Shown: piece by piece, positions 31,497 through 45,110 of the stretch
How positions within the stretch are numbered: the stretch's first letter is position 1
How the letters are laid out: every line of letters begins with the position of its first letter
Source of the DNA: Clostridiaceae bacterium
GTDB lineage: Bacteria > Bacillota > Clostridia > Acetivibrionales > DTU013
Assembly: GCA_012519745.1 (NCBI GenBank)
Contig: JAAYPO010000062.1
Span: forward strand, 1 to 64,000
Direction of reading: 5' to 3'
DNA: 64,000 bases
The notes under the pieces: generated by a model
The model's database searches: none
Told to the model about the DNA's origin: nothing
What the model saw: only the letters and a program-made list of their open reading frames with translations
Made by a program: the position numbers and the translations under genes

Positions 31497-31525
31497 TTGA
31501 CATATACAAAAAAGAAATTTACAAT
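31497..31525 (+). promoter_or_regulatory. Strong sigma-A-like promoter for FGGY kinase - DeoR operon
   Basis: TTGACA, 17-bp spacer, TACAAT. Confidence 0.8.
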
Positions 31526-31558
31526 AAAAAGTAGTAATAAACAGCAATAAACGATAAA
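31523..31558 (+). promoter_or_regulatory. Candidate DeoR-family operator repeats
   Basis: AATAAAAAGT / AATAAACAGC / AATAAACGATAAA direct repeats just downstream of -10. Confidence 0.55.
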
Positions 31559-31570
31559 GGAGATTCTGCG

Positions 31571-33091
31571 GTGAGTTCATATATTATTGGAATAGATATT
31601 GGAACACAGGGAACAAAGGCTGCGCTGTTCAACGAAGACATGGAACTGGTAACGACCGCTTTTGAGGAGTCCAGACTGATCTCTCCAAAGCCGGGGACGG
31701 TGTGGCAGGAGCCGGACGACCTTTACCTGTCCTGCGCCAGAACGATAAAGGAGCTGCTTGACAAGTCGGGCACATCACCTGCAGATGTGAATGCGATAGG
31801 CATAGACGGTCAGATGGCAGGTATAATGGGCGTGGATGAGAAGGGTCAGGCCTCCACATACTTTGATTCGTGGCTTGATACCAGGTGCGGCGGGCAAATG
31901 GAGGAAGTGCGTGCCCGTGCGGGAAAAAGGATAATTGAGCTCAGCGGCGGCCCGGCGTCATATGTCCACGGCCCCAAGATACTCTGGTGGAAGCATGAGC
32001 ATCCTGAGGCGTATAGAAAGACTGCTAAATTCGTATTGCCCCATGCATATGTAGTTGGCAGGATGACCGGCCTTTCAGGCGAAGAAGCATATTTCGACTA
32101 CACTCATCTCCATTTTTCATGTCTTGCGGATAATGCAAACAAGAAGTGGTCGGATGAGCTGCTGGAAACATTTGATATAGACAAGAGCAAGATGGCACGG
32201 ATAGTGTCACCTTTTGATGTGATGGGAAAGATCACAGCAGAGTTTGCTGCAGTCTCCGGACTGATCGAGGGCATACCGGTAGTTGCAGGATGTGGTGATA
32301 CGGCTGCCAGCACGTTTGGCTCAGGCATGTTCGAGAGAGAAATGATACTGGACTGCGCCGGTACGGCATCCGTATTGTGCAGTGTTGTGGACACCTATGT
32401 TCCTGATACGGAGCATGAAACACTCACTATGATGAGAAGCCCTGTGGATGGCCTTTTCCTTCCATTGGCTTATATAAACGGCGGAGGCATGTGTATACGC
32501 TGGTTCCGTGATACGCTGAGCGGAAGGCCTGCCGCCGGTTACAAGGAAATAGATGCCGAAGCTGCGGCCATCGATCCGGGAAGTGAAGGGCTCATATTCA
32601 TACCTCATTTTTCCGGAAGAGCGCTGCCGAGCAACACCAATCTCAAGGGAGCCTGGCTTGGACTTGATTTCAAGCATACCCGCGGCCATATGTACCGCGC
32701 TGTGATGGAATCGATAGCGTATGAGTACAGATACTATCTTTCGGTATTACGCAGCCTGCATCCCGAAGACAGCTTCAACAACATGCTGACTATCGGCGGA
32801 GGAGCCAAGTCTGCGCTTTTCAACCAGATAAAGGCTGATGTGCTGGGAGTTGACGTCACGACCTTTGAAACGGGTGAGACTGCCCTTTTGGGAAGTGCTG
32901 TAATAGCCGCTTACGGAACAGGAATGTTGTCGGATTATAGGAAGCCTATACAAAAGGTTATGAAAAAGGGTGCGGAATTCGTTGCTGATATGTCAAGACA
33001 CAATAGCTACAGCCCTTATGCAGAGGCATATCTGAAGGCTATTGATCAGGTAACTCCGTTTTATGAAAATAATGACTTAACGAGGCAATAG
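31571..33091 (+). CDS. FGGY-family carbohydrate kinase (xylulokinase-like)
   Basis: IIGIDIGTQGTKAALF; IGIDGQMAGIMG; TIGGGAKSALFNQIKADVLG; GTG start. Confidence 0.92.
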   Translation: MSSYIIGIDIGTQGTKAALFNEDMELVTTAFEESRLISPKPGTVWQEPDDLYLSCARTIKELLDKSGTSPADVNAIGIDGQMAGIMGVDEKGQASTYFDSWLDTRCGGQMEEVRARAGKRIIELSGGPASYVHGPKILWWKHEHPEAYRKTAKFVLPHAYVVGRMTGLSGEEAYFDYTHLHFSCLADNANKKWSDELLETFDIDKSKMARIVSPFDVMGKITAEFAAVSGLIEGIPVVAGCGDTAASTFGSGMFEREMILDCAGTASVLCSVVDTYVPDTEHETLTMMRSPVDGLFLPLAYINGGGMCIRWFRDTLSGRPAAGYKEIDAEAAAIDPGSEGLIFIPHFSGRALPSNTNLKGAWLGLDFKHTRGHMYRAVMESIAYEYRYYLSVLRSLHPEDSFNNMLTIGGGAKSALFNQIKADVLGVDVTTFETGETALLGSAVIAAYGTGMLSDYRKPIQKVMKKGAEFVADMSRHNSYSPYAEAYLKAIDQVTPFYENNDLTRQ

Positions 33092-33162
33092 ATTACCACC
33101 GCCTTTATAGGCGGGGGGAGTATGTCTCAGTAATATAGAAGAGCATAAAAGGAGAAAACGCA

Positions 33163-33963
33163 ATGGCAAAACAGACAGGGGGTATGCTGGCCCATGTGCG
33201 TCAGCAGGTTATAGCCGAGCTTGTCAACAAAACGGGAAATATTACAGTAAGTGATCTTTGCGAAAGATTCAATGTATCTCCCGCAACCATCAGAAATGAT
33301 CTGCGGAATCTGGAAGGCCGCAGGATCATCAAGCGTACCCATGGCGGAGCAGTAAGCTCAACCAAAACAGTTGCCGAGCTGAGCACTGTGCAGAAGGAGA
33401 TCAGAAACATCAGCGAAAAGAGGGCTATTGCCCAGGCTGCCCTCGAATTCATCCAGGAGGGCGATGCAATAGCCCTTGATTCAGGAACTACTGCATTCGA
33501 ACTGGCAAGGCTGCTGGGGTCTTTCAAGAATCTGACTGTAGTGACCAATGACCTTCAGATCGCATCATGGCTGGAGCAGAAGACAACAGTGACCATAATG
33601 CTTGCAGGAGGACTCGTCAGGCGTAATTTCCGCTGTACGTCGGGACAGTCAGCCCTGGATATGCTCTCGATGCTTCATGTGGACAAAGCTTTTGTGGCAG
33701 TGAACGGCGTGAGCATAAAGAATGGCCTGACAACACCTGGAATGGACATGGCCTGCATAAAAAAGCAAATGATCGATTCTGCCGACAAGGTGATACTGCT
33801 GGCTGACAGCAGCAAGATCGAGAGAACTGCATTTGTGACATATGCTCCTGTTTCGCTGGTGGATGTGCTGATAACGGATGAACAGGCGGACAGCAGTTTT
33901 GTAGATGCAATGCGCGGAGCAGGCGTAAATGTTGTTACGGCCAAGCTTCCGGTAACAGGATGA
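33163..33963 (+). CDS. DeoR-family transcriptional regulator
   Basis: ITVSDLCERFNVSPATIRNDLRNLEGRRIIKRTHGGA; DeoR sensor domain AIALDSGTTAFELARLL. Confidence 0.95.
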   Translation: MAKQTGGMLAHVRQQVIAELVNKTGNITVSDLCERFNVSPATIRNDLRNLEGRRIIKRTHGGAVSSTKTVAELSTVQKEIRNISEKRAIAQAALEFIQEGDAIALDSGTTAFELARLLGSFKNLTVVTNDLQIASWLEQKTTVTIMLAGGLVRRNFRCTSGQSALDMLSMLHVDKAFVAVNGVSIKNGLTTPGMDMACIKKQMIDSADKVILLADSSKIERTAFVTYAPVSLVDVLITDEQADSSFVDAMRGAGVNVVTAKLPVTG

Positions 33964-34145
33964 GACAGGCAACAGGATGTATCGTCAGCGATACATAACG
34001 TCGATTCGAATACAAGGCGAAGAGCCTGTACAGATTTAGCAATATGCCCCATAGATATGCATGGTTGTTTTTAGCAGCCATGCATTTTATTTTCAGAAAT
34101 TATCGTTCAGGTGCTCGTGAAAGCAGAAAAATAGGTCAATACGAA

Positions 34146-34175
34146 AATAAACGATAGAAAACAATAAAAAACGAT
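34146..34175 (+). promoter_or_regulatory. Candidate DeoR-family operator repeats
   Basis: AATAAACGATA (34146) and CAATAAAAAACGAT (34162-34175); ACGAT elements exactly 20 bp apart. Confidence 0.55.
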
Positions 34176-34203
34176 TGCGTAACGCTAATCAAAGAGTTAT
34201 AAT
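34175..34203 (+). promoter_or_regulatory. Promoter upstream of Gfo/Idh operon
   Basis: TTGCGT, 17-bp spacer, TATAAT. Confidence 0.65.
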
Positions 34204-34237
34204 AAAGAAAAAGTAACTTAACAGGAGCTAACCGAAG

Positions 34238-35257
34238 ATGAGCAAACGTGAATTAGGTATTTGTTTGATTGGATGTGGACGTGCAGGAATGATACATGCA
34301 CGCAATTTCATGAATAAGGTCCCGGGTGCACGGATGACTGCGGTGGTAGATGTTGTTGAAGCTGCCGCCAGGTCAGCAGCCGAGGAATTGGGGATCGACA
34401 AATGGTACACGGACTACAGACAGGTCCTCAATGATGAGACAGTGGACGCTGTAGTAGTAGTTTCTCCAACCAATCTGCACAGAGATATAGTTATTGATTG
34501 TGCAAACGCGAAAAAACACATATTTTGTGAAAAGCCAATGGCTATGAACACCACGGAATGCGATGAAATGATCGAGGCATGTGAGAGAAATAATGTTAAG
34601 CTGCAAATAGGCTTCATGCGCCGTCACGATCTGAGCTTCAAAGAAGCAAAGAGGCTTTTGGATGAGGGAGCTATCGGTGATCTGGTACAGATACACTCAT
34701 GCACCCGCGGTCCGAGCAAGCCGCGCCCGTGGATGTACGATCTGAAAAAATCAAACGGTATACTGGCAGAGGTAAACAGCCACGATATCGACTCTATCCG
34801 TTGGTTTGCCGGCAGTGAAATAAAAGAACTGTATGCAGTTGCGGGCAATTTTAGAAATCCTGAAGCCAGAGCTGAGTATCCTGATTATTATGACAGCGTT
34901 CTAATGAACGGGGTCTTCGAAAACGGAGTACAGTTTTCAATAGATGGTGCGGCCTATGTGCAATACGGTTATGATTCGAAAATGGAGATCGTCGGAACAA
35001 AGGGCGTCCTCCATGTGGGGCGTTCCGATGCTAATTTTGTAAAGTGTACGACGGTGGAAAACGGCACCTCGACACCATTTATAAACAGCTGGATGACACT
35101 GTTTATCGATGCCTATCTCTCAGAGGACACTGCTTTTGTAGAAGCAATAAATAATGATACACCGCCCAGGGTGACGGGTTGGGACGGCAGACAGGCCGTG
35201 AGCATCGTTGAAGCAGGCAATCAATCTATTATGACAAAAAACATCGTAAGACTCTAA
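34238..35257 (+). CDS. Gfo/Idh/MocA-family oxidoreductase (inositol 2-dehydrogenase-like)
   Basis: GICLIGCGRAGMIHARNF; HIFCEKPMAMNTTECDEM; AEVNSHDIDSIRWF. Confidence 0.93.
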   Translation: MSKRELGICLIGCGRAGMIHARNFMNKVPGARMTAVVDVVEAAARSAAEELGIDKWYTDYRQVLNDETVDAVVVVSPTNLHRDIVIDCANAKKHIFCEKPMAMNTTECDEMIEACERNNVKLQIGFMRRHDLSFKEAKRLLDEGAIGDLVQIHSCTRGPSKPRPWMYDLKKSNGILAEVNSHDIDSIRWFAGSEIKELYAVAGNFRNPEARAEYPDYYDSVLMNGVFENGVQFSIDGAAYVQYGYDSKMEIVGTKGVLHVGRSDANFVKCTTVENGTSTPFINSWMTLFIDAYLSEDTAFVEAINNDTPPRVTGWDGRQAVSIVEAGNQSIMTKNIVRL

Positions 35258-35294
35258 TGCACAAATAAACAATGATCATGGAGGAGGGGTATCA

Positions 35295-36338
35295 ATGCTT
35301 AGCTTGAAGTTGTATGGGCCTAATGATATCAGACTGGTGGAAACAGAAGTACCGGTCATAAATGATAATGAGCTGCTGCTGAAAACTGATGCTGCAGCGA
35401 TATGCGGCACAGATATCAGGATGTGGCAGAATGGGTACAAGGGAGTGGATGAGGAGCATCCGCTGATACTGGGACATGAGTTTTCCGGAACCATCGTGAA
35501 GGCCGGCAAAAATGTTCCATTCTACAAGGAAGGGATGCAGGTCGCAATACAGCCCAATATCGGCTGCGGCATTTGTGAGCGCTGTGTATCGGGTAATTTC
35601 CACCTTTGTGATGATTATAGGGCTTTCGGTATAAATATGGACGGAGCGTTTGCGGAATATGTCCGCATACCGGGCGATGCAGTACTTCGTGGCAATCTGA
35701 TGCTGCTGCCGGAGGGTGTGACTCCTGCTGAAGCCGCTGTGATAGAACCTCTTTCATGTGCATACAATGGATTTACCAAGTGCTTTGTGCAACCGGGCGA
35801 TTATGCTCTGATAGTAGGTGCGGGTCCTATAGGGAGCAGCCATGCGATGCTGCTGCATATGGCCGGCGCATCGGTACTGATGAACGACCTGTCTCAGGAT
35901 CGGCTGGATCAGTGCAAGCAAATCATGCCGTATATCGAGACCTACTGCGGAGATAACCTTGCCGGCTTTGTAAAGGAATGGACCCGTGGAAGAGGTCTGG
36001 ATATCGCCATCACAGCATGTCCGGTGCCCCAAGTCCAGTCGGCTATGATCCCGTTGATGAACTATGGCGGCAGAGTCAATTTTTTCGGCGGTATCCCCGC
36101 AAACAAGCAGCCGGTTCCAATCGACACCAATATAGTACATTACAAGGAGCTGTATCTGACGGGCTCGACCAGATCGAGCATTGCTCAGTTCAGAAAGACG
36201 CTGGAGTTTGTCTCTCAGGGTCTGCTGAATGTTGAGAGCATGATATCCCACCGATATGGATTGAAGGATATTCTGACCGGCTTTGAGAATGCCAGACAGG
36301 CCATGGGTATCAAGCATGTTATTGAATTTGGAAAGTAA
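35295..36338 (+). CDS. Zinc-dependent medium-chain dehydrogenase
   Basis: AAICGTDIRMWQNGY; LGHEFSGTIVKAGKNV; structural zinc motif GCGICERCVSGNFHLC; ALIVGAGPIGSSHAMLL. Confidence 0.94.
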   Translation: MLSLKLYGPNDIRLVETEVPVINDNELLLKTDAAAICGTDIRMWQNGYKGVDEEHPLILGHEFSGTIVKAGKNVPFYKEGMQVAIQPNIGCGICERCVSGNFHLCDDYRAFGINMDGAFAEYVRIPGDAVLRGNLMLLPEGVTPAEAAVIEPLSCAYNGFTKCFVQPGDYALIVGAGPIGSSHAMLLHMAGASVLMNDLSQDRLDQCKQIMPYIETYCGDNLAGFVKEWTRGRGLDIAITACPVPQVQSAMIPLMNYGGRVNFFGGIPANKQPVPIDTNIVHYKELYLTGSTRSSIAQFRKTLEFVSQGLLNVESMISHRYGLKDILTGFENARQAMGIKHVIEFGK

Positions 36339-36386
36339 TCATTTTGCAGCATTATATAAACAATATGTGTGATGGAGGTTTGATAT

Positions 36387-37715
36387 ATGAAAGTTCGTCT
36401 GGTTCCATTATATTTTGCAGAGACAAATGAACGTGAAAGACAGGAATTCCAGGAACAGATGGCACGACTTCGCGATTTCTACGGAGATGTGGCGGAATTT
36501 CTTACAGAGGTGCGCTTGGGAGACCCTATACCCGAGGCAGATGCCGTATTGTTCCCTCAGTTGATTTTTGCAGCGTTTCGCCATGATGATGAGCTGAAGG
36601 CCTGTGGTCTGCCCATGGTGGTACTGACGTCCCGCTTCGGTACAGTTGAAATGTGGGACTGGGAAATAGTCACATACCTTCGCGACATTGGATGCACCGT
36701 TTTTTCACCATATAGTATGGAAATGGCAAAAACAGTACTGAGGGCGATAGCAGTAAAACGCACTCTCAATGCCGGCGCCAAATTCCTAATGTTTCAGGAT
36801 TCTCCCGGAGAAGGCATGCAGGCAAATATATTCAAGCGCTTCTACTGGTGGGAGAAGGAGAGCACTGAAAAGATGGAGGAGGTCTTTGGCTGCAAGCTGA
36901 TATACCGCAGCTGGAAGGAAGTAGGCGACCGTGCAAGACAGATATCAGATGAAGAAGCACTAAAGGTAAGCGCAGACTGGAACATCAAACAGGAAGGTGT
37001 ATCCGAAATGGCGTACCTTCGTGCAGTAAAGATCTATATTGCAGTAAAGGAAGTTATTGATGAAATCGGGGATGTGGCAGGTGTAGGTTCAAACTGTCTG
37101 AATGAGTCGTTCAATTGCGATACTACGCCATGTCTTGCCTGGAATATGCTCTTTGAGCGTGACAATATCATATTCGCATGCGAAGGAGACACCCTGACAC
37201 TTCTATCGACATATATAATAAACAGATCGCTGGACAAGCCGATAATGATGACCAACCTGTATCCGTTCCTGGTCGGAATGGCCGCGCTTGCACATGAGCG
37301 CATTGACAAATTCCCAGATATAGAAGATCCTGATAACCATGCATTGGGAGTCCATTGCGGATACTTTGGCCTGGCAGCCAGGAGCTTCTGTACAGAGTGG
37401 ACACTGCGCCCCAAGGTCCTGGAAATAGTCAATGACGATGCGATAGTAGTTGACTGCCGTATGCCCAAGGGCAAGGTAACTTTAGCAAAAATATATCCCG
37501 GCTTCAGGAAGCTCAGTGTAATAGAGGCTGAGATCGAGGATTATGTTCAGTATCCAGGATCCGATTGCAGGAATGGCGCACTGATCCGTTACAAGGACGG
37601 GCATAAAGTGATGGATGCTCTTTGCTCGCATCATTCGCTGATAATCACAGGGGATGTCAGACCACAGCTGAGGCAGCTCGCCAGAGTCTTTGGCTTTGAT
37701 GTAACCGAACTGTGA
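36387..37715 (+). CDS. L-fucose/L-arabinose isomerase-fold family protein (COG2407-like), substrate unknown
   Basis: 442 aa FucI-like layout: GVGSNCLNESFNCDTTPCLAWNMLFER, ...FGLAARSFC, C-terminal HHSLIITGDVRPQLRQLARVFGFDV. Confidence 0.7.
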   Translation: MKVRLVPLYFAETNERERQEFQEQMARLRDFYGDVAEFLTEVRLGDPIPEADAVLFPQLIFAAFRHDDELKACGLPMVVLTSRFGTVEMWDWEIVTYLRDIGCTVFSPYSMEMAKTVLRAIAVKRTLNAGAKFLMFQDSPGEGMQANIFKRFYWWEKESTEKMEEVFGCKLIYRSWKEVGDRARQISDEEALKVSADWNIKQEGVSEMAYLRAVKIYIAVKEVIDEIGDVAGVGSNCLNESFNCDTTPCLAWNMLFERDNIIFACEGDTLTLLSTYIINRSLDKPIMMTNLYPFLVGMAALAHERIDKFPDIEDPDNHALGVHCGYFGLAARSFCTEWTLRPKVLEIVNDDAIVVDCRMPKGKVTLAKIYPGFRKLSVIEAEIEDYVQYPGSDCRNGALIRYKDGHKVMDALCSHHSLIITGDVRPQLRQLARVFGFDVTEL

Positions 37716-37892
37716 AGCCGCCTCTTGATTGGCAATGGAACTGAGATGGATTATATGTTACTGAATATGAAAATAAAGGGGCATATTCCGGGAAATTCTA
37801 TTGTTTATTAGCGGTAGTTTGTTGATATTTGTTGGAATTGGAAGCATGTCAATAAAAATACTGCACAAATATTATCGAAATTTAATGTATTT

Positions 37893-37903
37893 TATCGTTT
37901 ATT
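37893..37903 (-). promoter_or_regulatory. Candidate DeoR-family operator (minus orientation)
   Basis: TATCGTTTATT = reverse complement of AATAAACGATA; second TATCG at 37873, exactly 20 bp upstream. Confidence 0.55.
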
Positions 37904-37904
37904 A

Positions 37905-37933
37905 TTGACAGGTTGAGTTTCAGCTGATATATT
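37905..37933 (+). promoter_or_regulatory. Consensus sigma-A promoter for TIM/ABC operon
   Basis: TTGACA, 17-bp spacer, TATATT. Confidence 0.8.
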
Positions 37934-37962
37934 AAATTGTGAGAACTGATTATAACGAGGCG

Positions 37963-38088
37963 ATGGATGTTTTACCCAAACTGATGATGGATACCGATTC
38001 GGCTCAAGCGCTGGAAACACCTGCTACCTCGTTAAAACCCACAGAGAAAGAAAAAATCTCTGTGATCGAGAATTTTTCTCAAGGATGA
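37963..38088 (+). other. Small ORF (41 aa) inside a structured 5' leader
   Basis: MDVLPKLMMDTDSAQALETPATSLKPTEKEKISVIENFSQG*; weak RBS; lies between a consensus promoter and the first operon gene. Confidence 0.35.
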
Positions 38089-38208
38089 TATGTTATAACA
38101 AGTTGAAAGAATTGGACACATTGGGAATCAAAAGGAAGCACTAGAGAAGCAGCAGAATTTTCTGCAGATGAATGAGAAAAAACACAGTAACAGACGGAGA
38201 AATTGATT

Positions 38209-39054
38209 ATGATGATTGGTGCTAGTTCTTATATATGGGTATCTCCCTTTACTACTCAAAAAACAGACCAGCTGGCTCATGCCAGAGATATTGGCTTTGA
38301 TGTATATGAGATCGCTGTTGAAGAGCCTGATGCTATAGATGAAAATGAAGTATATGAAAAAGCGCAGCGTGCAGGTATAGCTGTACATGTGTGTGGAGCA
38401 TATGGCGAAACCAGAGATATAAGCAGCGATGTGCCAGAGTATCGTGATAATGGAATGGCATACGGGAAGCGTCTGATAGACATGGCAGCAGTCCTTAAGT
38501 CACCATATGTTGCAGGTCCGATGTATGCTGCAGTGGGAAGGACACGTTTGGCATCAAAAGCGGAAAAAGAGCGCCAAATGGACCTGGCCGCAGCGAATAT
38601 GAGAAAGCTTGCTGCCTATGCAGCAGACAAGGGCGTATTGCTGGCAATAGAGCCGCTCAACAGATTTGAGACAGACTTTATTAATACTGTCGAGCAGGGG
38701 CTGGACTTTCTGGATAGAGTAGGGAGCGACAATGTAGGTTTCCTGCTTGATACCTTTCATATGAATATTGAAGAAAAATCCCTGACGGAGGCGATCCGCA
38801 TGGCAAAGGGAAAAATATTCGACTTCCACGCGTGTGCTAATGACCGCGGTACTCCGGGCCAGGATCATTTCGACTGGGAGGCGATCCGCAGTGCACTGGA
38901 AGATGCTGATTACAGCGGACCTATCGTTATAGAATCATTTACTCCAGAAATAAAGGAAATAGCAAAGGCAGTATCACTTTGGCGTCCATTGGCTGAGAGC
39001 CCGGACAGCCTTGCCCGGAACGGTTTGCAATTCCTGCGCTCCGTATTCGGATGA
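38209..39054 (+). CDS. Sugar phosphate isomerase/epimerase (xylose isomerase-like TIM barrel)
   Basis: LLAIEPLNRFETDFINTVEQGLDFLDRVGSDNVGFLLDTFHMNIEE; FHACANDRGTPGQDHFDW. Confidence 0.93.
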   Translation: MMIGASSYIWVSPFTTQKTDQLAHARDIGFDVYEIAVEEPDAIDENEVYEKAQRAGIAVHVCGAYGETRDISSDVPEYRDNGMAYGKRLIDMAAVLKSPYVAGPMYAAVGRTRLASKAEKERQMDLAAANMRKLAAYAADKGVLLAIEPLNRFETDFINTVEQGLDFLDRVGSDNVGFLLDTFHMNIEEKSLTEAIRMAKGKIFDFHACANDRGTPGQDHFDWEAIRSALEDADYSGPIVIESFTPEIKEIAKAVSLWRPLAESPDSLARNGLQFLRSVFG

Positions 39055-39064
39055 CCATTTTTGA

Positions 39065-39088
39065 CACATACGGCATATGCCGTTTGTG
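39065..39088. repeat. Palindrome upstream of sugar-binding-protein gene
   Basis: CACA T ACGGCATATGCCGT T TGTG. Confidence 0.8.
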
Positions 39089-39122
39089 ATATAAAAACCT
39101 TTCCAGATTAAGGAGGAAGAAA

Positions 39123-40145
39123 ATGAAGAAATTATTCGTAGTTGTACTGTGTTTGGTACTCGCATTAACAGCTGTAGCATGTTCTTCACAGAAGCCGGCC
39201 GATGATAAGACTCCGGCCCAAACTCCGGCCCAAACTCCGGGCGAAACTCCGGCAACAGCTGAAAAAGGCCTTATCGGTATTACAGTTCCTGAAGCACCTA
39301 CAGGCTGGGTCGCAGCGGTACAGTGGGCAGCTGACCAAACAGCAAAGAGACTGGGCTTGAATTATAAGCTCCTGGTTTCAGCAGATGAAAACACCCAGGC
39401 AAATCATATCGATGAATTGATCCAGCTTGGATGTGAGACAATCGTTCTGATGCCGCATAACGATACACTCGGTACTGCTGCACAGAAGATCAAGGATGCA
39501 GGCATCACTCTGATCAACTTTGACCGTACTCTCGGAGCAACAGAGCCTGATTACTATGTGGCAGGCGACAACTATCAGATGGGCGTTATAGGCGCTGATT
39601 ATATCGCTGAGAAGCTTGGCGGCAAGGGCAAGGTAGTTATTGCCAACATACCGGCATACGGCGAAATATTCAATACACGTGTTAAAGGCTTCAGAGATAC
39701 AGTTGCTGAAAAGTATCCTGAGATCGAGATCCTGCAGGAATACGGAGCAGAAAACGGTGCTCCCGAAACAGGTCTGCGTATCATGACTGACGTACTGACA
39801 GCTTATCCGGATGGAATAGATGCAATCTACTCAACAGACGATGAACTTTCCATCGGTCTTATCCAGGCAATAAATGAAGCCGGACGTATGAAGGACATCA
39901 AGGCTATCACAGGCGGCGGCGGATCACAGGTATACTTCAAGGTAATGGAGCAGTATCCTGAAATGGCTATATCTTCACAGACATACGATCCCTACATGAT
40001 GATCAAATGTGTTGAGATAGCAGCAGGTCTCCAGGAAGGCAAGACTTATGATGCAAAAACCATAATCCCTGCCAAGACTCTTGACCTGGGAACCTACAAG
40101 GCATGGTTGGACGAGAACCACATCACACCTGACGCTCCTTACTAA
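39123..40145 (+). CDS. Sugar ABC transporter substrate-binding lipoprotein (ribose/RbsB-like)
   Basis: Lipobox TAVACSS; LIGITVPEAPTGWVAAVQWAADQTAKRLG; periplasmic-binding type 1 fold pattern. Confidence 0.93.
   Translation: MKKLFVVVLCLVLALTAVACSSQKPADDKTPAQTPAQTPGETPATAEKGLIGITVPEAPTGWVAAVQWAADQTAKRLGLNYKLLVSADENTQANHIDELIQLGCETIVLMPHNDTLGTAAQKIKDAGITLINFDRTLGATEPDYYVAGDNYQMGVIGADYIAEKLGGKGKVVIANIPAYGEIFNTRVKGFRDTVAEKYPEIEILQEYGAENGAPETGLRIMTDVLTAYPDGIDAIYSTDDELSIGLIQAINEAGRMKDIKAITGGGGSQVYFKVMEQYPEMAISSQTYDPYMMIKCVEIAAGLQEGKTYDAKTIIPAKTLDLGTYKAWLDENHITPDAPY
39210..39253 (+). repeat. In-frame 12-bp minisatellite in lipoprotein linker
   Basis: ACTCCGGCCCAA x2, ACTCCGGGCGAA, ACTCCGGC encoding TPAQTPAQTPGETPA. 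Confidence 0.9.
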
Positions 40146-40186
40146 GATATAGCAGCACAGGAAATCAAACGATAAAAACTGATATG

Positions 40187-40208
40187 GGAGACGGCGTATG
40201 CCGTCTCC
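40187..40208 (+). repeat. Hairpin between substrate-binding and ATPase genes
   Basis: GGAGACGGC GTAT GCCGTCTCC perfect 9-bp stem. Confidence 0.85.
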
Positions 40209-40332
40209 TGTATAAACTTTGAAGGATATAAGCAAAAACAGGTAATTTGATTATTTTTAGCAGTAATTAATACTTCAACCAAACAGAGTCACAGTGTCGC
40301 TGTGATTTCGAGAAATTAGCGAGGAGACTAAC

Positions 40333-41844
40333 ATGGAAAATTGCTCATTGCAGATGAAGGACATTGTTAAATCGTATAATGGAGTTACGGTTTTAAAAAG
40401 TGTCAGTCTCAATGTGCGGCAGGGCGAAATCCACGCACTGTTAGGCGAAAACGGGGCAGGCAAAACAACGCTGATGAATATTCTAGGTGGAGTAGTTCAG
40501 AAGGATTCGGGTGAGATCTCGCTGTTCGGGAAACCGGCAAAGATCACCACGCCTGCTGAATCCCAGGCCCTTGGCGTTGCATTCATACATCAGGAGCTGA
40601 ATGTTGTAAATGACCTGATGGTTTATGAAAATTTGTTCCTTGGGCGCGAATTGTATAAAAAAACCGGCGTTCTCGATGCAAAAAGAATGTGCGAGGAAAC
40701 TGAGAAGGTATTCAAGAAGATGAATGTTTTCATTGATCCCAGAAAAATGATGAGTGATCTGGAAACATCCTACAAGCAGGTCGTGGAAATTGCCAAAGCA
40801 TTGCTGATGGATGCCAGGCTGATCATAATGGATGAGCCGACGACATCACTGACACAGAAGGAAATTGACAATGTTTTTAAAGTAATAAGAGGTTTGACTA
40901 AGGAACATGGAGTAACTGTAATATTCATTTCGCATAAACTCGGCGAAGTTGTTGATTTTTGTGATAGCTACACTGTATTACGGAATGGTGAAAATGTATC
41001 TTCCGGCAGCATAATGCAGGAAAATGGTGAGAAGATCAGCCAGACGGATATCGCCAAGATGATGGTCGGCAGGGATGTTCTCAATCAACAGGTATATGTT
41101 GAGCACGAAATCGGCGAGCCATTACTTGAAGTAAAGGACATGACGGTCGGCACCTGTGTAAAGTGCGTGAGCTTCCATCTCAAGGAGGGAGAGATCCTTG
41201 GCATCACAGGATTGCTGGGTGACGGAAAGGATGAGATGGTACGTGCTTTGTTCGGTGACTTGCCGCATACCGGCACGGTATTGAAAAATGGAAAGCCGTT
41301 GAAGGTCAAGCACCCTTCAAAAGCAAAATGCCAGGGCATAGGGTATTTACCGCCTAACCGTAAGGAAAACGCAATTATCAAGGACTTGTCCGTTCAAGAT
41401 AATATTACTATTACAGCGCTTGAAAAATGCCGCAGAGGGGTCGCGCTGAGCAAGAAAAAGGAACGTACTGTTGCGCAGGAATTTGTTGAGAAGCTGCGTA
41501 TCAAGGCAGACAATATACAAAACAGGATAACAAGCCTGTCCGGCGGAAATCAGCAGAAGGCTGTTTTATCAAAATGGCTCAATGCAAAACCGGATATCAT
41601 GATAATGTCCAACCCGACCCAGGGTGTTGACGTTGGAGCAAAGAATGAGATCTATGCCGAGATAATGAAGCTTGCCAAGCAGAAAATAGGCGTCATCGTT
41701 ACCTCGGGAGAAGCTCAGGAGATAATCAAGCTGTGCGATCGCGTACTTGTCATGTATCACGGCGAGCTGCGCGGTGAACTGAGACGGGATCAGCTGACAG
41801 AGGAGAATATCATGATACTTTCAACAGGCGGCAGCCTAAACTAA
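40333..41844 (+). CDS. Sugar ABC transporter ATP-binding protein (dual ATPase, RbsA/MglA-like)
   Basis: LLGENGAGKTTLMNILGGV; two ABC domains; LSGGNQQKAVLSKWLNAKPDIMIMSNPTQGVDVGAK. Confidence 0.95.
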   Translation: MENCSLQMKDIVKSYNGVTVLKSVSLNVRQGEIHALLGENGAGKTTLMNILGGVVQKDSGEISLFGKPAKITTPAESQALGVAFIHQELNVVNDLMVYENLFLGRELYKKTGVLDAKRMCEETEKVFKKMNVFIDPRKMMSDLETSYKQVVEIAKALLMDARLIIMDEPTTSLTQKEIDNVFKVIRGLTKEHGVTVIFISHKLGEVVDFCDSYTVLRNGENVSSGSIMQENGEKISQTDIAKMMVGRDVLNQQVYVEHEIGEPLLEVKDMTVGTCVKCVSFHLKEGEILGITGLLGDGKDEMVRALFGDLPHTGTVLKNGKPLKVKHPSKAKCQGIGYLPPNRKENAIIKDLSVQDNITITALEKCRRGVALSKKKERTVAQEFVEKLRIKADNIQNRITSLSGGNQQKAVLSKWLNAKPDIMIMSNPTQGVDVGAKNEIYAEIMKLAKQKIGVIVTSGEAQEIIKLCDRVLVMYHGELRGELRRDQLTEENIMILSTGGSLN

Positions 41845-41862
41845 TTTTTGGGGGACGTTAAA

Positions 41863-42846
41863 ATGCAAAATACAATTACAAAGCAGAGGGTCGGTCTGAA
41901 TTCTCTGAAAAAGTTTGCAAGCGGCAACAGTATAGTACTTGTAGTGCTTGCGATGATATTTGTTGCAACTCTGGCTGAGGGTACGCAGTTTTTATCGCTG
42001 CAGAATTTCATGAACATTTTGCGAAATCATTCTGTTATCGGCATAATTGCACTGGGTATGTCCTTTGTCATTATTTCAGGCAATATAGACCTTTCGGTCG
42101 GTGCACAAATGGTTGCTGTAGCAGCAATTACAGTTTCGTTTGTTAACAGTACGGGAAATGTTGTGGTTGGCATAATAATCGCCATTCTCTCAGGTTGTCT
42201 GATGTCAACTGCAACCGGCATTATCGTGACAAAGGGACGTGTGCCTTCTTTTATTGTCACACTTGGCATGCAGTATATATATCGCTCTCTCAGCATGTTC
42301 TTCATGTCAGGCGGCGGTTTTTACCTTGACAAGACGAAGGCGCCATTTTATACGCAGATCTCAAACTACAATCTTTTTGGCAAGATCCCAATGTCTGTTA
42401 TATACTATGCGCTGATGTTTGTATTGTTCTGGTTCATATCCAGGTATACAAGGCTGGGCCGTCACATATATGCTGTCGGTTCTAACGAAAAAGCCACACG
42501 CCTTTCAGGTATAAATACAGATCGTATCAAGATACTTGCATTTACGCTGCTGGGTCTTGCGATATCGGTTGCAGCTGTCGTTGAAAGCTCCAGGATGGGA
42601 TCTATAAACTCTACATCTTCAGGTAACGCATATGAGCTCAATGCCATCGCAATGACAGTAATAGGCGGTATCTCCATGGAAGGCGGAAAAGGAAGGATAT
42701 CCGGAGCTCTGTACGGCATGCTGATACTTGGGATAATCAACAACATGATCACTTTGCTGGGTGTGAATGTTTATCTGATCAATGCCTTTAAGGGATTGAT
42801 CATAATAGGTGCAGTTCTCCTCCAGAGAAAGGACAGAGAACTTTAA
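41863..42846 (+). CDS. Sugar ABC transporter permease (RbsC-like)
   Basis: SVIGIIALGMSFVIISGNIDLSVGAQMV; GRHIYAVGSNEKATRLSGI; start set to ATG 41863. Confidence 0.93.
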   Translation: MQNTITKQRVGLNSLKKFASGNSIVLVVLAMIFVATLAEGTQFLSLQNFMNILRNHSVIGIIALGMSFVIISGNIDLSVGAQMVAVAAITVSFVNSTGNVVVGIIIAILSGCLMSTATGIIVTKGRVPSFIVTLGMQYIYRSLSMFFMSGGGFYLDKTKAPFYTQISNYNLFGKIPMSVIYYALMFVLFWFISRYTRLGRHIYAVGSNEKATRLSGINTDRIKILAFTLLGLAISVAAVVESSRMGSINSTSSGNAYELNAIAMTVIGGISMEGGKGRISGALYGMLILGIINNMITLLGVNVYLINAFKGLIIIGAVLLQRKDREL

Positions 42847-43799: not shown

Positions 43800-43937
43800 G
43801 ATGGTATAAATCAGATATACATATAAGATCCGGATGAAGGACCCAGGATATTCAGGCACATGGTATGCTACAAATGATCGCCCGGGGGCATGATATGGAT
43901 CGAACAGGTATATCATAATGCAGCAGGAGGCTTTATA

Positions 43938-45110
43938 ATGGGAAAAAAGAAGCTCAACGTCGCAATGATAGGCGGCGGATTTATGGGAAAAGCCCACAGC
44001 AATGCATGGCGCAGGGTCGGTGAATTCTTCGATACTGACTATGAGATCGTATTGAAGGTAATCGCAGGCAACAAGACCCCCCTGGAAGACTTTGCAAAGC
44101 GCTGGGGCTATGAAGAAGTGACATATGACTGGCGCAGTGTAATGGAACGGGACGACATAGATATCGTTGACATCGGAACACCTACCTTTGAGCACAAGGA
44201 AATGTCGATTGCCGCTGCTAAAGCAGGCAAACACATAGTTTGTGAAAAACCCTTCACACTCACCTATGACGATGCAAAGGAAATGGTGGAAGCAGTTGAA
44301 AAAGCCGGCGTGGTCCATTATCTGAACCACAACTACAGAAAGGCTCCGGCCGTATCTTATGCAAAGCAGCTCATCGATGAAGGCAGGATAGGGACTGTGT
44401 ATCATTGGCGGGGCGCATACCTGCAGGACTGGATAACAGACCCGAACTTCCCGCTCTCATGGCAGCTGCAAAGGGATAAAGCAGGGGGAGGCCCGTTGTT
44501 TGACCTTTCATCCCACGCGGTGGATCTGGCCCGCTTTTTGATAGGAGAACCTGAAGCTGTCACTGCAGTCAATAAGACGTTCATTAAGAAACGTCCGCTG
44601 CCAGGTGCAGGGGCTACGGCATTTACAGCAGGTACGGGCGCGAGTACGACAGAGATGGGCGATGTCGAGGTGGATGATGCATCCTTTGCAATAGCCGAGT
44701 TTGAAAACGGTGCTCTGGGCAGCATCGAGTCATCGAGATTTGCAGTGGGAAGAAAGAATTACAACGATTTTGAGCTCTATGGCAGCAAGGGAGCATTGAG
44801 GTTCAATCTGGAGCGCATGAATGAGCTCGAGTTCTTCGACTTCACTGAAAAAGGCAGAGAACAGGGTTACCGCAGGATACTTGTAACCGAAGCGGATCAT
44901 CCCTATCTGTCGGCATGGTGGCCCTCCGGGCATATAATCGGTTACGAGCACACATTTGTCAATGCATTCTATGACTTCCTAAATGCAGTAGCAGGCAAAG
45001 GCGTGATCAAGCCCGACTTCCATGACGGAGCTCAGATAATACGCATTCTTGAAGCGATTCGCAAGTCCAGTGACGAAGGACGCAGAGTCACCATAGACGA
45101 AATAAAATAG
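43938..45110 (+). CDS. Gfo/Idh/MocA-family oxidoreductase, levoglucosan dehydrogenase-like subgroup
   Basis: LNVAMIGGGFMGKAHSNAWRR; HIVCEKPFTLTYDDAKEMV; YLQDWITDPNFPLSWQLQRDKAGGGPLFDLSSHAVDLARFLIGEPEAVTAV; start set to ATG 43938. Confidence 0.9.
   Translation: MGKKKLNVAMIGGGFMGKAHSNAWRRVGEFFDTDYEIVLKVIAGNKTPLEDFAKRWGYEEVTYDWRSVMERDDIDIVDIGTPTFEHKEMSIAAAKAGKHIVCEKPFTLTYDDAKEMVEAVEKAGVVHYLNHNYRKAPAVSYAKQLIDEGRIGTVYHWRGAYLQDWITDPNFPLSWQLQRDKAGGGPLFDLSSHAVDLARFLIGEPEAVTAVNKTFIKKRPLPGAGATAFTAGTGASTTEMGDVEVDDASFAIAEFENGALGSIESSRFAVGRKNYNDFELYGSKGALRFNLERMNELEFFDFTEKGREQGYRRILVTEADHPYLSAWWPSGHIIGYEHTFVNAFYDFLNAVAGKGVIKPDFHDGAQIIRILEAIRKSSDEGRRVTIDEIK

Follow-up and report, generated by a model that had tools for sequence, protein, structure and literature searches.

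The window, a stretch of 64,000 nucleotides from a Clostridiaceae bacterium, contains three operators that are genuine and evolutionarily conserved, at the promoters of a gene cluster for which "rare-sugar cluster" is a fair label. Each operator is an array of three to four tandem decamers (consensus YRATAATAAA) with an exact spacing of 10 bp. Judging from sequence, the DeoR-type repressor encoded within the cluster itself almost certainly binds these operators, and the protein at 33163-33963 very probably acts as the local repressor on the three arrays. The first-pass annotation had proposed an autoregulated DeoR regulon of three units that share an 11-bp word. The regulon gained support, with arrays conserved together with deoR at orthologous promoters and absent near distant DeoR proteins. 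The definition of the operator was corrected from the 11-bp word to the 10-bp-phased decamer array, and a proposed fourth copy at 40163 was dropped.

Organization of the cluster

The genes lie on the forward strand in three transcription units. Unit 1 starts with an XylB-like sugar kinase of the FGGY family (31571-33091), followed by the presumed operator binder (33163-33963). The earlier assignment of the latter to the DeoR family is confirmed by an N-terminal DeoR helix-turn-helix domain (PF08220, 71.6 bits for a cut-off of 21) and a C-terminal DeoRC sensor domain (PF00455, 175.8 bits for a cut-off of 31.8). The genome encodes three DeoRC proteins, this one and two others. A terminator-like hairpin with a T-rich tail (34057-34085, forward strand) closes unit 1 and stands between it and unit 2. 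The latter encodes an IolG-like dehydrogenase of the Gfo/Idh/MocA family (34238-35257), an IolM-like zinc alcohol dehydrogenase (35295-36338), and a protein of 442 amino acids (36387-37715). Unit 3 begins, after a gap of around 490 bp (37716-38208), with a D-tagatose/psicose 3-epimerase-like gene (38209-39054) and continues with the genes of a ribose-type sugar ABC transporter, i.e., binding protein, ATPase, and permease (39123-42846). A search of the cluster region against Rfam gave no match.

The three promoters described in the first-pass annotation are indeed present, all on the forward strand. That of unit 1 (TTGACA-17-TACAAT, 31497-31525) matches the consensus at 11 of 12 positions, and its TTGACA is kept in all seven aligned loci. 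The promoter of unit 2 (TTGCGT-17-TATAAT, 34175-34203) was read by eye and has a poor -35 box that matches three of six positions; its TATAAT is kept in five of five aligned loci. The promoter of unit 3 (TTGACA-17-TATATT, 37905-37933) is conserved. Among the promoter-like matches in the region, the two with TTGACA rank highest. Just downstream of the -10 box of unit 3 lies TGATTATAA, which is kept in four loci.

The operators are arrays of phased decamers

The 11-bp word AATAAACGATA occurs exactly at 31546-31556 and 34146-34156 on the forward strand and at 37893-37903 on the reverse strand, i.e., at the three promoters where it had been reported. It turned out to be only a part of a larger operator, namely the junction between two decamers (AATAAA followed by CGATA). 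The register is best seen at the middle site of contig 72 in the congeneric genome G002, which reads CGATAATAAA CGATAAAATT CGATAAAAAA CGATTG, with four copies of CGAT that follow one another every 10 bp exactly. Applied to the sites of the window, this register gives four-unit arrays. Operator 1 (31522-31561, forward strand) reads CAATAAAAAG TAGTAATAAA CAGCAATAAA CGATAAAGGA and spans the region from the -10 box to the ribosome-binding site. Operator 2 (34142-34181, forward strand), with CGAAAATAAA CGATAGAAAA CAATAAAAAA CGATTGCGTA, overlaps the -35 box of unit 2, and operator 3 (37868-37907, reverse strand), with CAATAATAAA CGATAAAATA CATTAAATTT CGATAATATT, runs into that of unit 3. The 20-bp distance between duplicated CGAT cores, noticed before at sites 2 and 3, is correct and corresponds to two steps of the array. 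A period of 10 scores highest at all three sites (25.5-37.5 bits), a period of 11 reaches at most 1.9 bits, and a period of 9 is also near zero.

Two other places in the cluster were considered. The weaker copy at 40163, which had been listed as a further site, scores 10.3 bits with three units and 7.8 with four, has no conserved counterpart in G002, and falls within the transporter operon; we rejected it as a fourth operator. A weak candidate auxiliary operator, CGCTAATAAA CAATAGAATT (37794-37813, reverse strand), scores 18.2 bits as two units, which equals the shuffle maximum. It aligns with (A/G)CG(A/C)TAACAAA in three relatives, at another distance.

Frequency of the motif and controls

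The genome comprises 3.07 Mb in 138 contigs. With one mismatch allowed, AATAAACGATA has seven matches in the window for 1.08 expected, a number that none of 100 shuffles reached. The first-pass annotation had suggested a motif search in the genome and in orthologous clusters. Three of the seven exact copies in the genome fall within this 6.4-kb stretch, upstream of genes, and arrays recur in relatives (see below). The other four exact copies are inside open reading frames, lack arrays, and were rejected as operators. One-mismatch matches are no commoner across the genome than those of the reversed control. As a genome-wide detector, AATAAACGATA alone, or a pair of decamers with up to three mismatches, is too loose, with counts near those of the reversed control. 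The longer 17-base form CRRNAATAAACGATARA occurs exactly three times in this genome, always in the cluster. Across the 58 genomes of the order, its exact matches are in the clusters of this genome, G002, and G003, plus two elsewhere; the 50 genomes that belong to other families of the order have only two.

We then scanned the 64-kb window with a weight matrix built solely from the decamers of relatives. Operator 3 scored 42.1 bits, operator 2 38.2, and operator 1 34.7; the next-best place in the window reached 8.7 bits and the best of 60 dinucleotide shuffles 22.3. Since orthologous operators share descent, we also dropped each operator class in turn from the matrix. Operator 1 scored 17.4 bits (best elsewhere 7.3) when the kinase operators were left out, operator 2 34.9 (best elsewhere 9.5) without the iolG operators, and operator 3 31.2 (best elsewhere 8.5) without the iolO operators. 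Hence, the three operators resemble one another and not merely their orthologs. In this test operator 1 has the lowest score, its 17.4 bits being under the shuffle maximum of 22.3, which comes from a different matrix.

At the scale of the genome, the two best decamer-pair matches of the pattern search are both in this cluster. Its four-unit arrays score 32.6-42.7 bits, against at most 13.2 for the other loci fetched from this genome, and none of the latter emerged as a further member of the regulon. The other two deoR loci have no strong array: the best at L129 scores 10.3 bits with four units, and L128 is not among the top matches.

Conservation across relatives

In congeners, arrays precede the orthologs of the kinase, iolG-like, and epimerase genes. 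Operator 3 is nearly invariant in four loci, where the spacer between the -35 and -10 boxes has diverged. The kinase operator is kept in congeners, where its CGAT core is changed to CGAA or CGCA, as well as in a different genus of the same family (31.0 bits at L039).

The arrays extend to a second family (L049, L050, and L135), whose DeoR proteins are 51-52% identical to that of the window and whose gene order is different. We scanned these loci with a matrix holding none of their data, for which the shuffle maxima were 12-18 bits. Arrays were found just upstream of the kinase gene (28.1 bits in L049, 19.4 in L050, and 23.0 in L135), just upstream of the IolG-like gene (15.0, 20.9, and 21.0 bits, respectively), and near the binding-protein gene (18.5 bits in L049 and 14.8 in L135). 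In L049 and L050 a phosphotriesterase-like frame, identified by eye, comes after the IolM-like gene and replaces the 442-aa protein and the epimerase. In G828, whose DeoR is 49% identical, an array of 17.8 bits precedes deoR itself. At 44-45% identity (L138, L139, and L051) no array exceeds the shuffles of the locus, and in G139 (46.8%) a match of 20.3 bits, for a shuffle maximum of 18.7, lies around 2.8 kb downstream of deoR. The lineage of this DeoR is rare: at E <1e-70, a sample of 399 genomes from across the phylum yielded it only in the genome of the window, and at E <1e-60 it was present in 5 of 391 genomes across the class.

Regulatory model

Operator 1 precedes the kinase-deoR unit and does so in relatives as well, which is the arrangement of local autoregulation; with deoR in unit 1, behind operator 1, the circuit would be autoregulated. 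All three sites lie over a promoter or 5' UTR, the position of a repressor. Site 1 falls between the -10 box and the ribosome-binding site and the other two sites overlap the -35 boxes, which makes repression the likely mode. A protein on site 1 could hardly do anything but impede transcription; repression is thus the parsimonious reading of all three sites. In the proposed mechanism, DeoR would bind the three arrays, whose 10-bp spacing would place all repeats on one face of the helix. At site 1 it would cover the -10 box and the transcription start of kinase-deoR, and thereby regulate its own synthesis; at sites 2 and 3 it would cover the -35 boxes of the dehydrogenase/isomerase and epimerase/transporter units. 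A sugar or an intermediate of the pathway would free DeoR from the DNA. By analogy with a characterized regulator (see below), this inducer is probably a ketose or a ketose phosphate. A more elaborate version, in which DeoR assembles cooperatively on four phased decamers plus the auxiliary upstream operator and controls an undescribed rare-sugar/cyclitol pathway (with the orphan enzyme of L-arabinose-isomerase fold, the IolM-like dehydrogenase, and the ketose 3-epimerase), is conceivable but rather unlikely.

Chance matches in AT-rich intergenic DNA, which the first-pass annotation had named as the finding that would speak against its proposal, could be suspected from the four exact copies of AATAAACGATA elsewhere in the genome and from one-mismatch counts no higher than in the reversed control. 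Yet as an origin of the words shared by the three promoters they are contradicted by the shuffles of the window, and also by the leave-one-operator-out test, the 10-bp phasing, and the conservation across two families, so that we give this explanation a practically negligible probability. It is also improbable, though less so, that a different regulator, either another DeoRC protein or an unrelated factor, occupies the arrays, deoR being a mere neighbor. The genome does encode two further DeoRC proteins, but their loci lack a strong array, and the arrays accompany this particular deoR across two families while being absent near more distant DeoR proteins.

The same DeoR might instead activate units 2 and 3, whose arrays coincide with the -35 box or precede it, a position compatible in itself with activation. 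We consider this very improbable: at site 1, downstream of the -10 box, a protein on the DNA would stand in the way of transcription, and in a related study the sites of DeoR-family regulators, which fall on promoter elements or 5' UTRs, were read as repressor sites (PMC8579813).

Comparison with known regulators

The motifs of DeoR-family RhaR regulators are direct repeats with a periodicity of 10-11 bp (PMC3870299), and the three arrays are direct repeats of this kind. RhaR of Chloroflexus aurantiacus was shown by EMSA to bind a 38-bp tandem of four sites with the consensus TCGAAA and is released by the ketose L-rhamnulose (PMC3870299). It is, like the presumed regulator described here, a local sugar regulator of the DeoR family with a tandem of four short sites; the repeat (YRATAATAAA here), the gene set, and the phylum are different. 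In Caldicellulosiruptor bescii every DeoR-family site falls on a promoter element or in a 5' UTR, and the AxgR site of Caldicellulosiruptor is a tandem repeat (PMC8579813). AxgR, UxaR, and RhaR of that genus are likewise local regulators in sugar clusters, with sites over promoters or 5' UTRs, but their clusters serve other substrates; we compared them by description. In Thermotoga maritima, the regulator of inositol catabolism, IolR, belongs to the ROK family (PMC3750489). The targets described here resemble the inositol genes of that species (iolG, iolM, and iolO), whereas their regulator is of the DeoR family instead of ROK. IolR of Bacillus subtilis is a DeoR-family protein whose operator is an A-rich tandem of 11-mers. 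It shares the family with the regulator of the window; its 11-bp unit and the sequence of its repeat are different. The operator is a tandem-repeat array of the type known for DeoR-family sugar regulators, and the control that it would exert is local and of an ordinary kind. For a subfamily of DeoR proteins (around 49% identity or more), these results define a DNA motif and a regulon that can be tested.

The pathway and the 442-aa protein

The regulon joins the sugar kinase, the two dehydrogenases, the orphan protein with an isomerase fold, the epimerase, and the transporter into one pathway, and thus offers a handle on its substrate. We considered the inositol pathway and do not claim it, since the enzymes fall under the curated NCBIfam cut-offs: the IolG-like protein has 287.7 of 355 bits, the IolM-like protein 185.3 of 450, and the IolO-like protein 151.5 of 300. 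By its sequence, the product of 38209-39054 qualifies as an IolO/psicose-epimerase-like protein.

The 442-aa protein has no sequence match in Pfam, NCBIfam, or the PDB; congeners share it at 89-91% identity. An AlphaFold model of the protein, made from six sequences, has a mean pLDDT of 70. The predicted fold is of the L-arabinose isomerase type: Foldseek matched the model to L-arabinose isomerases with a best E-value of 9e-18, a TM-score of around 0.5, and 11-14% identity. Further downstream, 43932-45107 encodes a second Gfo/Idh dehydrogenase, which is closest to levoglucosan dehydrogenase, under the cut-off (392 of 650 bits).

In genome G002 the cluster is present twice and almost in full (L036 and L037), each copy with its own deoR and operators, which could reflect either a true duplication or a metagenome bin of mixed strains. 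Both copies keep a hairpin (GGAGACGGC-GTAT-GCCGTCTCC) that lies in the window at 40187-40208, between the binding-protein and ATPase genes, and is perhaps an mRNA stabilizer or a partial terminator. An inverted repeat upstream of the ATPase gene (TCACAGTGTCGCTGTGA, 40289-40305) is also present in contig 72 of G002 and, in an altered form, in its contig 97.
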